This document shows positions 22,786 to 26,350 of a DNA stretch of 64,000 nt, one piece after another (the first letter of the stretch is position 1; each line of letters opens with the position of its first letter). This stretch comes from Caulobacter sp. CCUG 60055. Lineage in GTDB: Bacteria; Pseudomonadota; Alphaproteobacteria; Caulobacterales; Caulobacteraceae. A model generated the notes under the pieces. It ran no database searches, was not told where the DNA came from, and saw nothing but the letters and a program-made list of their open reading frames with translations. The stretch is taken from assembly GCF_022750545.1 (NCBI RefSeq), contig NZ_PUIC01000008.1:62001-126000 (forward strand), in the 5' to 3' direction. A program made the position numbers and the translations under genes.

Positions 22786-22903
22786 CCGGCGGCGCCCTGC
22801 GACTTCGCGTCACAGGGGAATTTTTCCCTCTAGGGTAGAGTGATAAGGTCGCGCCCGCTCGGACGTCCCGTCCGAAGCGTCCTCCAGCGTGAAAGGCGAG
22901 ACC

Positions 22904-23131
22904 ATGGCCAATTCCCTGGTGCTCAACAGCAAGAAGTACGCGATCTACGTGCGGGTGATCGCCGGCGAAGGCGACGGTCCGCTGATCTGGATCGACGCCA
23001 GCGGCCATATCCATGTCGGCCCCGGCGATCCCTCGCCCCAGGTCGCCAAGGAGATCCAGGCCGGCGTCGCCCAGATCCAGGCCGGTGTCGAACACGCCCT
23101 GCGTGCGGCGGGCCAGCAGGTTCACGCCTGA
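22904..23131 (+). CDS. Small conserved-looking hypothetical protein
   Basis: A 75-residue protein starting MANSLVLNSKKYAIYVRV. I do not recognise it. The middle ends in WIDASGHIHVGPGDPSP, followed by a C-terminal amphipathic repeat in which EIQAGVAQIQAGVEHAL contains two copies of IQAGV. The ATG at 22904 follows GGCGAG; an upstream in-frame GTG at 22889 is less likely. A short 7-bp hairpin (22859-22875) lies in its leader. It stands alone between an ABC exporter and the S10 peptidase pair, all on the plus strand. Confidence 0.65.
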   Translation: MANSLVLNSKKYAIYVRVIAGEGDGPLIWIDASGHIHVGPGDPSPQVAKEIQAGVAQIQAGVEHALRAAGQQVHA

Positions 23132-23237: not shown

Positions 23238-24761
23238 ATGCGTAGGAACGGGAGGGGCGGGACCATCGCCCTGGCGGTGGTCCTGGCCGTCGGAGCAGCG
23301 GCTCCTGCATGGGCCAAGGCGGCGGACAAGCCGCCCGTGGAGGCCAAGAAGGAAGAGGCCGACAAGGCCATCGGCGACCTGCCGCCGTTCCCCAAGGACG
23401 CCAGCGTCAAGCAGGTGACGCACGTCGCCGGCAAGACCCTGAACTACACCGCCACCGTCGGCTCGCTGCCGGTGCGCGACGACAAGGGCAAGAAGATCGC
23501 CGAGGTGGTGTTCACCGCCTACGTCCTGGACGGGCCGCGCGATCCCAGCCGGCCGATCACCTTCGCCTTCAACGGCGGCCCTGGCGCGGCGTCGGTCTAT
23601 CTGAACCTCGGGGCCATAGGTCCCAAGCGCATCCAGTTCGGGGCCCAGGGCGACAGCCCGTCCGATCCGGTGCGGCTGGTCGACAACCCCGGCACCTGGC
23701 TCGACTTCACCGACATGGTGTTCATCGACCCGGTCGGCACCGGCTATTCGCGCTCGCTGACCTCGGAGGAGGAGACCAAGAAGCGCTTCTACGCCGTCAA
23801 GCCGGACATCGCCTACCTGTCGCGGGTGGTGTTCGACTGGCTGGTCAAGAACGACCGACTGGCCTCGCCCAAGTTCGTGGTCGGCGAAAGCTACGGCGGA
23901 TTCCGCGGCCCGCGCATCACCCACTACCTGCAGACCCAGCTCGGCGTCGGCGTCAACGGCGTGGTGCTGGTCTCGCCGCTGCTCGACGGCGTCACCCGCC
24001 AGGGCGGCGAGATGTCGCCGCTGCCGTGGATGGTCAACCTGCCGTCGATGGCCGCCGCCAACCTCGAGCGCCAGGGCAAGCTGACGCCCCAGGCCATGGC
24101 CGAGGTCGAGGCCTATGTCCGGACCGACTATCCCCTCGACCTGATCAAGGGGCGCTCCGACCCGGCCGCCGTCGACCGCATCACCGCCAAGGTGACCAGC
24201 CTGACCGGTCTCGACGCCGGCTTCGTCAAGCGGCTGGGCGGGCGGATCGAGACCCAGGCCTTCCTGCGCGAGGTGTTCCGCGACGAGGGCAAGCTGGGCA
24301 GCCGTTACGACTCCAACGTCACCGCCTTCGATCCCTTCCCGTTCGCGCCCGAGCAGGAGACCAACGACCCGATCCTGGATTCGATCATCGCCCCGACCAC
24401 CAGCGCCATGGTCGACTTCACCACCCGCATCGTCGGCTGGAAGGTCGAGGGCCGCTACAACGCCCTCAGCAACGAGGTGAACCGGCTGTGGGACCGCGGC
24501 CGGGGCAAGGACACCGAGTCCGTCACCGACCTGCGCCAGGCCGCCGCCGTCGATCCGAAGATGAAGGTGCTGATCGTGCACGGCTACAACGACCTGTCGT
24601 GCCCGTACTTCGCCTCGCGGCTGATCATCGACCAGATGCCGGTGATGGGCGATGCGAACCGGGTCCAGCTCAAGGTCTATCCGGGCGGCCATATGTTCTA
24701 CAGCCGTCCCGACAGCCAGGCGGCCCTGCGCCGCGACGTGATGGCGGCCTACGGCCGGTGA
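23238..24761 (+). CDS. Exported S10 serine carboxypeptidase-like protein, copy 1
   Basis: A 507-residue alpha/beta-hydrolase of peptidase family S10 with an N-terminal signal peptide ending AAPAWA. The nucleophile is Ser218 in VVGESYGG. The aspartate is in IVHGYNDLSCPYF and the histidine in YPGGHMFYSRP. The oxyanion region is FNGGPGAASVYLNLG. Bacterial members are periplasmic or secreted peptidases of unknown specificity. The next gene is a tandem paralogue. A 390-bp stretch (23370-23759) is about 98% identical between the two, well above the rest of the genes. Confidence 0.92.
   Translation: MRRNGRGGTIALAVVLAVGAAAPAWAKAADKPPVEAKKEEADKAIGDLPPFPKDASVKQVTHVAGKTLNYTATVGSLPVRDDKGKKIAEVVFTAYVLDGPRDPSRPITFAFNGGPGAASVYLNLGAIGPKRIQFGAQGDSPSDPVRLVDNPGTWLDFTDMVFIDPVGTGYSRSLTSEEETKKRFYAVKPDIAYLSRVVFDWLVKNDRLASPKFVVGESYGGFRGPRITHYLQTQLGVGVNGVVLVSPLLDGVTRQGGEMSPLPWMVNLPSMAAANLERQGKLTPQAMAEVEAYVRTDYPLDLIKGRSDPAAVDRITAKVTSLTGLDAGFVKRLGGRIETQAFLREVFRDEGKLGSRYDSNVTAFDPFPFAPEQETNDPILDSIIAPTTSAMVDFTTRIVGWKVEGRYNALSNEVNRLWDRGRGKDTESVTDLRQAAAVDPKMKVLIVHGYNDLSCPYFASRLIIDQMPVMGDANRVQLKVYPGGHMFYSRPDSQAALRRDVMAAYGR
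23370..23759 (+). repeat. Gene-conversion tract, copy 1
   Basis: These 390 bp, within the first S10 gene, differ at about seven positions from the equal-length tract at 24953-25342. Almost all changes are silent; one gives Val versus Ala. Flanking sequences on both sides diverge clearly, as expected for recent gene conversion between tandem paralogues. Confidence 0.8.
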
Positions 24762-24799
24762 CCGTGGCCTGCAACGACAGATCGAGGAAGGAAGCGCCG

Positions 24800-26350
24800 A
24801 TGGGCTCCAAGTGGAAGATCCTGGCCGCCGCCTGCGCGGTCGCCCTGCTGGCGGGCTCCGCCGCCGCGCCCGCCTGGGCCGACGACGACGCCAAGCCCGC
24901 CGCCGACGCCAAGAAGGACGAGGGCAAGAAGGGCGAGGGGGCCGACAAGTTCATCGGCGACCTGCCGCCGTTCCCCAAGGACGCCAGCGTCAAACAGGTG
25001 ACGCACGTCGCCGGCAAGACCCTGAACTACACCGCCACCGTCGGCTCGCTGCCGGTGCGCGACGACAAGGGCAAGAAGATCGCCGAGGTGGTGTTCACCG
25101 CCTACGTCCTGGACGGGCCGCGCGATCCCAGCCGGCCGATCACCTTCGCCTTCAACGGCGGCCCCGGCGCGGCCTCGGTCTATCTGAACCTCGGGGCCAT
25201 AGGGCCCAAGCGCATCCAGTTCGGGGCCCAGGGCGACAGCCCCTCCGATCCGGCGCGGCTGGTCGACAACCCCGGCACCTGGCTCGACTTCACCGACATG
25301 GTGTTCATCGATCCGGTCGGCACCGGCTATTCGCGCTCGCTGGTCAACGACGAGGAGAGCAAGAAGCAGTTCTTCACGGTCAAGTCCGACATCGCCTACC
25401 TGTCGCGGGTGGTGTTCGACTGGCTGGTCAAGAACGAGCGCATGGCTTCGCCCAAGTTCGTGGTCGGCGAAAGCTACGGCGGTTTCCGCACCCCGCGCAT
25501 CGCCCACTATCTGCAGACCGACCTCGGCGTCGGCCCCAGCGGCGTGGTGATGGTCTCGCCGTTCCTCGACGCCCAGTCCGAGCAGGGCGGCAACTTCTCG
25601 CCGATGTCGTGGATCGGCACGCTGCCGTCGATGGCCGCCGCCAATTACGAGCGCCAGGGCAAGCCGCTGACGCCCGAGACCATGGCCGCCGTCGAGGCCT
25701 ACGCCCGTTCCGAGTTCGCCGTCGACCTGCTGAAAGGCCGTTCCGACCAGGCCGCCGTCGATCGCATCGTCCACAAGGTGACCGAGTTCACCGGCCTCAA
25801 TCCCACATTCGTCAAGCGTTCGGGCGGTCGCATCGAAAGCCGCGCCTTCCTGCGCGAGCTCTATCGCGACCAGGGCAAGGTCGGCTCGTGGTACGATTCC
25901 AACGTCACCGCCTACGACCCCTTCCCGTGGTCGCCCGACGCGCCGGACGGCGATCCGATCCTCAACCAGATCATCGCCCCGACCACCAGCGCCATGGTCG
26001 ACTTCACCAACCGCACCGTCGGCTGGAAGCTGTCGGCTCGCTACAACGCCCTCAGCAACGACGTCGGCGAGAAGTGGGAGAAGGGCTGGTGGGCGACCGC
26101 CGAGTCGGTGACGGACTTCCGCCAGGCGGTGGCGACGGACCCGAAGATGAAGGTGCTGATCGTCCACGGCTACGACGACCTGTCGTGCCCGTACTTCGTC
26201 TCCAAGCTGATCGTCGACCAGATGCCGACGATGGGCGAGGCGGGCCGGGTGCAGATCAAGGTCTATCCGGGCGGGCACATGTTCTACAGCCGTCCCGACA
26301 GCCAGGCGGCCCTGCGCCGCGACGTGATGGGCGTCTACGCCGCGCGGTGA
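24800..26350 (+). CDS. Exported S10 serine carboxypeptidase-like protein, copy 2
   Basis: A 516-residue paralogue of the preceding gene, 38 bp downstream and probably cotranscribed. It has its own signal peptide (cleavage near AAPAWA) followed by a charged Asp/Lys-rich linker. Nucleophile Ser225 is in VVGESYGG, with the acid in IVHGYDDLSCPYF and the base in YPGGHMFYSRP. A well-placed GAAGGAAG precedes the ATG at 24800. The central region (about residues 185-420) differs from copy 1 at many positions, consistent with distinct substrate preferences. Confidence 0.92.
   Translation: MGSKWKILAAACAVALLAGSAAAPAWADDDAKPAADAKKDEGKKGEGADKFIGDLPPFPKDASVKQVTHVAGKTLNYTATVGSLPVRDDKGKKIAEVVFTAYVLDGPRDPSRPITFAFNGGPGAASVYLNLGAIGPKRIQFGAQGDSPSDPARLVDNPGTWLDFTDMVFIDPVGTGYSRSLVNDEESKKQFFTVKSDIAYLSRVVFDWLVKNERMASPKFVVGESYGGFRTPRIAHYLQTDLGVGPSGVVMVSPFLDAQSEQGGNFSPMSWIGTLPSMAAANYERQGKPLTPETMAAVEAYARSEFAVDLLKGRSDQAAVDRIVHKVTEFTGLNPTFVKRSGGRIESRAFLRELYRDQGKVGSWYDSNVTAYDPFPWSPDAPDGDPILNQIIAPTTSAMVDFTNRTVGWKLSARYNALSNDVGEKWEKGWWATAESVTDFRQAVATDPKMKVLIVHGYDDLSCPYFVSKLIVDQMPTMGEAGRVQIKVYPGGHMFYSRPDSQAALRRDVMGVYAAR
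24953..25342 (+). repeat. Gene-conversion tract, copy 2
   Basis: The partner of the tract at 23370-23759: equal length, about 98% nucleotide identity. It encodes the segment from IGDLPPFPKDAS to the GTGYSRSL motif. Confidence 0.8.

Follow-up and report, generated by a model that had tools for sequence, protein, structure and literature searches.

Near-identity of a 391-bp tract in two tandem S10 peptidase genes of Caulobacter sp. CCUG 60055 points to interlocus gene conversion

Introduction

How do two neighbouring genes that differ over most of their length come to be almost identical over one stretch? The question is raised by a tandem pair of genes in the window, the 64,000-nucleotide stretch of the Caulobacter sp. 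CCUG 60055 genome analysed here. The original prediction, made from the letters alone, was a recent homogenisation of the N-terminal catalytic region of two S10 peptidases with diversification of the remainder. The comparison of the pair with related genes of the family argues strongly for interlocus (intragenomic) gene conversion between old tandem S10 paralogues, and this is very probably the correct explanation.

Results

Gene A (23238 to 24761, + strand, 507 amino acids), the probable recipient, and its tandem paralogue gene B (24800 to 26350, + strand, 516 amino acids), the probable donor, lie on the same strand with an intergenic gap of 38 bp. Both score above the Pfam PF00450 (Peptidase_S10) cut-off of 21.9 bits, with 70.0 bits for A and 68.7 bits for B, and their N termini look signal-peptide-like when judged by eye. 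Neither matched a model of NCBIfam; against the PDB, remote S10 matches were obtained with E-values of 5e-4 to 5e-3 over ∼100 to 140 residues. The NGGPG and FID-P-GTG segments of the window proteins align with those of yeast KEX1, and carboxypeptidase Y was also matched. In a 15-row alignment S218, D452 and H485 of A are invariant, and the GESYGG motif and the C-terminal His are present. The codons of these probable catalytic residues occupy 23889 to 23891 (Ser218, in GESYGG), 24591 to 24593 (Asp452) and 24690 to 24692 (His485), all on the + strand, and we take them to be the putative catalytic triad of S10 peptidases. Judged from their sequences, A and B are probably S10 peptidases with a predicted carboxypeptidase activity. 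A structure model from 15 sequences (mean pLDDT 51.4) was too poor for placing the tract or checking the triad. The one paper that a literature search on S10 peptidases in Caulobacter gave is unrelated, judging by its title and opening lines.

Codon alignment of A with B delimits a tract of 391 bp in A (23369 to 23759, + strand, codons 44–174), matching 24952 to 25342 (+ strand) of B. The tract carries 7 mismatches (98.2% DNA identity), six of them silent and one a V/A difference at 23671 of A (25254 of B), in agreement with the predicted 390 bp of about 98% identity and some seven mostly silent mismatches. The sites in A are 23411, 23582, 23591, 23621, 23660, 23671 and 23729; the longest exact run, starting at 23412, is 170 bp. 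Direct repeats in the 64-kb window (seed 16, length at least 60) were found solely within the A/B pair. The tract contains the NGGPG and DPVGTG motifs and is presumably the N-terminal core with an oxyanion and carboxylate-binding motif, with a role as in carboxypeptidase Y. The probable Ser218, Asp452 and His485 of A all lie outside it, and its description as the catalytic region has to be given up.

On the 5′ side identity drops, as foreseen, to 80% and 62% in 40-codon windows, and the linker holds an 18-bp A/B indel. On the 3′ side the divergence, predicted to be strong, is real and amounts to 80.7% DNA and 71.2% protein identity. The protein edge is abrupt at codon 174/175, with 8 codons differing in amino acid within 175–189. 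Sharp boundaries at both ends therefore hold for the 5′ edge and the 3′ protein edge, but not for the silent sites on the 3′ side, which remain similar to about codon 292.

Homologues at E ≤ 1e-120 were found in 92 of 390 genomes of the family, the window genome counted in, which is the sole representative of its genus among the compared genomes. Tandem pairs occur in 5 of the 92 (the window genome, G249, G276, G321 and G332) and two copies lying far apart in G178, counts that may miss weaker second copies since at most three candidates were scored per genome. The window genome itself has a third, distant S10 homologue (G000:C7:58493-59989, − strand, L003) with 34% identity to A. The remaining five pairs within single genomes, four in tandem and one dispersed, display 81–85% DNA identity in the tract and differ at 0.13–0.43 of fourfold sites, as compared to 0.05 for A/B, and a comparable tract is absent from all five. 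Equal similarity of orthologous pairs by descent, with saturated silent sites, is thus not what was observed.

Phylogenetic trees were built from 68 genes out of ∼62 genomes, separately for the tract (390 columns) and the post-tract part (999 columns). In the tract tree A and B are sisters with 100/100 support, given with a tool warning that the bootstrap had not settled. In the post-tract tree A groups with the first gene of G249 and genes of genus g14 (the A clade; 100/98), and B pairs with the second gene of G249 (L047_8725; 97/90). Constraining A and B as sisters in the post-tract part costs 113 log units and is rejected (AU p=1.7e-6). When the gene was divided into blocks, the sister arrangement was the best tree for codons 45–174 and was rejected for codons 235–300 (p=0.049), 301–370 (p=0.004) and 371–440 (p=0.013); for codons 175–234 and 441–506 the p values were 0.50 and 0.39. 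Codons 293–440 of A (24114 to 24557, + strand), which span the last two rejecting blocks, are without a conversion signal. Gene A is therefore a mosaic, and the conflict between its two parts, together with the deficit of silent differences described below, bears out a recent homogenisation of the A/B tract.

G321 (L049) and G332 (L050), both of genus g20, hold a common tandem S10 pair with the same nearest relatives in both trees. Since the nearest relatives of these copies do not change from tract to post-tract part, the two pairs serve as unconverted controls.

Two further genes change position between the trees: L072:5976-7487 (G273) and L047:8725-10173 (G249) join A-clade genes in the tract tree, in a group of ten rows (98/93), and lie outside the A clade in the post-tract tree. 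An older A-to-B conversion, or a deletion fusion of an A 5′ part to a B 3′ part, is possible for these genes. For G249 the older A-to-B conversion was set aside, as the AU test fits the tract without it (A genes without those two, p=0.243) and the mean tract distances do not discriminate (0.195 to the A clade and 0.193 to B types).

The gene order ABC transporter–S10–PPK2–RsmE recurs in several genomes of the family. Its S10 content is an A-clade gene only in L078, L080 and L081, a non-A gene only in L058, L061 and L072, and both in L047. The conserved order with varying S10 content suggests that the tandem pair is ancient and has probably lost members in different ways from lineage to lineage. 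In some genomes a YcaQ-like gene is also present at this locus, of which L027 covers a part. At E ≤ 1e-15, the loci retrieved from other genomes gave no match for an 80-amino-acid ORF just upstream of A (22889 to 23131, + strand), which may be lineage-specific or too short to pass such a threshold.

The variation in locus content among related genomes (A only, non-A only, A and B), and the adjacency of the copies on one strand, would also suit a chimera formed by reciprocal exchange, either by two crossovers or by unequal crossing-over in a former three-copy array. Such an origin is improbable, as A and B are both whole and the downstream part of A retains its A identity; two crossovers within 400 bp would moreover give a sequence identical to that left by conversion, so that this explanation differs in mechanism only. 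Still less likely is an assembly artefact in which reads from one copy were used for the other. The assembly is in 27 contigs and the longest exact repeat measures 170 bp, but this repeat is short, the contig runs on for 290 kb and the assembly is estimated as 99.99% complete with 0 contamination; a collapse would yield identity rather than 7 scattered mismatches.

The silent sites further support conversion. The ratio of tract to post-tract divergence is 0.093 for A/B, the lowest of 2278 pairs (all pairs of the 68 genes, mutually non-independent), followed by 0.394, with a median of 0.72. Among the codons of 45–173 that encode the same residue in A and B, 6 of 126 differ, whereas the median over the pairs is 0.286 and the 5% quantile 0.189. 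With codon frequencies taken from 40 selected ORFs of the window, the A/B pair left out, 44–47 silent differences were predicted for these codons and 6 were seen. The same control gave 13 against 31–38 expected for the G249 pair and 11 against 29–37 for the G276 pair; between-species pairs also fall below the expectation, to a smaller degree. An explanation without exchange, in which strong purifying selection on the N-terminal half and codon bias keep the silent sites alike, can draw on the greater conservation of the tract across the family (the median ratio given above) and on a strongly biased codon usage, but was rejected as hardly credible, the least likely of the alternatives, in view of the other pairs, the observed and predicted silent differences and the conflict between the tract and remainder trees.

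Polymorphic silent sites were permuted in a GENECONV-like test (custom script, 5000 permutations, two mismatch penalties), of the kind originally proposed, which gave codons 41–292 as the best A/B fragment under the stricter penalty, with 11 mismatches in 203 sites and p=0.0002, the floor for 5000 permutations; the milder penalty gave codons 41–505 (p=0.0006). The G249 and G276 pairs show weaker silent-site runs within the same half as the A/B tract, with p=0.0018 (codons 79–234) and 0.0022 (codons 36–227) under the stricter and 0.0010 and 0.024 under the milder penalty, respectively. The corresponding stricter and milder values were 0.48 and 0.0048 for G321, 0.099 and 0.30 for G332, and 0.15 and 0.084 for the dispersed G178 pair. 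Four between-genome controls gave p=0.047–0.36 (stricter) and 0.0048–0.21 (milder); as such controls reach low values, the weaker permutation results deserve little trust.

Codons 175–292 of A (23760 to 24113, + strand) possess silent sites that are B-like and residues that are largely those of the A clade, and may represent an older, patchy conversion. Here 5 of 82 same-residue codons differ between A and B, the lowest of the 2278 pairs, as compared to 23 of 93 in codons 293–440 and 5 of 50 in codons 441–506. Within codons 235–292 there is one silent A/B difference against 10.6–15.4 predicted from codon usage, and most residues match the A clade in A and the B type in B. Once the tract is removed, the silent similarity of this stretch, which was picked from the data, has a scan-corrected p of 0.145 and by itself is not significant. 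Rare bases exclusive to A and B were of little help as a marker of a longer tract: there are five in the tract (as many in 32 of 2278 pairs), three in codons 175–234 (as many in 44 of 2278 pairs) and none in codons 235–292, 293–440 or 441–506. These sequence patterns hint at an older, patchy conversion in which selection would have kept paralogue-specific residues. Positive selection after conversion in codons 235–292 (dN 0.245, dS 0.095) was considered and set aside. The differences there look old, because many of these codons encode the A-clade residue in A and a B-type residue in B. As to the predicted diversification of the remainder, the remainder has indeed diverged, but much of this is an old A-versus-B difference that was kept, rather than one shown to be new.

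Discussion

Interlocus conversion between A and B would have proceeded as a non-reciprocal homologous exchange, presumably of the RecA type and in a single event, in which ∼391 bp of A were overwritten by the matching stretch of B. The exchange would be bounded on the 5′ side by the linker with its 18-bp indel, and its 3′ end would lie around or past codon 174. The overwritten half is better conserved than the rest of the protein, which is probably why the exchange was tolerated. About six silent changes and the one V/A change would have followed, with the larger share in the A copy.

The direction of copying is suggested by comparison with hand-chosen sets of 17 B-type and 9 A-clade rows. The tract of A has a mean divergence of 0.144 to the B-type rows and 0.195 to the A-clade rows, as compared to 0.251 and 0.216, respectively, for the remainder of A; B is nearer to the B-type rows in both parts. 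In AU tests on the tract, placing A without B in an eight-row A clade was rejected (p=0.0011, and 0.048 with B dropped from the data); p was 0.133 for A and B together with a wider A clade and 0.181 for A alone, B dropped, in that wider clade. The resemblance of the A tract to B-type genes favours copying from B to A, which is probably the direction. The A bases at 23582, 23591 and 23671 are absent from all nine A-clade rows and thus look like new changes in A, not leftovers; those at 23621, 23660 and 23729 are shared with part of the A-clade rows, and the rare base at 23411 belongs to B, not A.

In the tract dS between A and B is 0.062, as compared to 0.27–0.39 when A or B is set against genes of other species (six comparisons), indicating that the event is probably younger than the split from every sampled relative, yet not brand new. 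In that sample the genus is represented by the window genome alone.

A wider reading is that tandem S10 pairs of the family have swapped N-terminal halves again and again, recently in the window genome and, judging by older traces, in G249 and G276, while residues specific to each paralogue are maintained by selection in the part that follows. This reading is tentative and would more probably prove wrong than right. If true, the two genes would be two specificities with a common core that evolves in concert, and the similarity of codons 175–292 at silent sites alone would be what is left of conversion against which selection had acted. Whole-gene trees of the S10 peptidase family can mix two histories.

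As proteins, A and B resemble the S10 carboxypeptidases KEX1 (1ac5) and carboxypeptidase Y (1wpx/1cpy) in matching Pfam Peptidase_S10, but the similarity is remote. As to the process, it is established that duplicated genes undergo interlocus conversion over a few hundred bp, and yeast tracts average ∼200–500 bp (PMC3924818). The A/B case is like those described there in that one paralogue is overwritten non-reciprocally over a similar length, and unlike them in that donor and recipient are bacterial protein genes of long-standing and strong divergence. PMC8022953 reports measurements of gene conversion between rRNA operons of E. coli; these likewise involve intragenomic bacterial recombination making one copy match another, but the rRNA copies are near-identical throughout, whereas A and B are homogenised in one stretch only. 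Gene conversion in M. tuberculosis is the subject of a 2026 paper (PMC13061034).

The gibbon L/M opsin genes, in which gene conversion is reported to occur with purifying selection (PMC3213168), would parallel A/B codons 175–292 in silent homogenisation with paralogue-specific residues retained; in A/B this pattern is no more than suggestive (the scan-corrected p given above). Should the extension at silent sites alone prove genuine, A/B would illustrate in a bacterium how conversion is countered by selection for residues specific to each paralogue. The process itself is well known, and A/B is a new, well-supported instance of it: a clean and unusually clear case of intragenomic conversion between strongly diverged bacterial protein genes.
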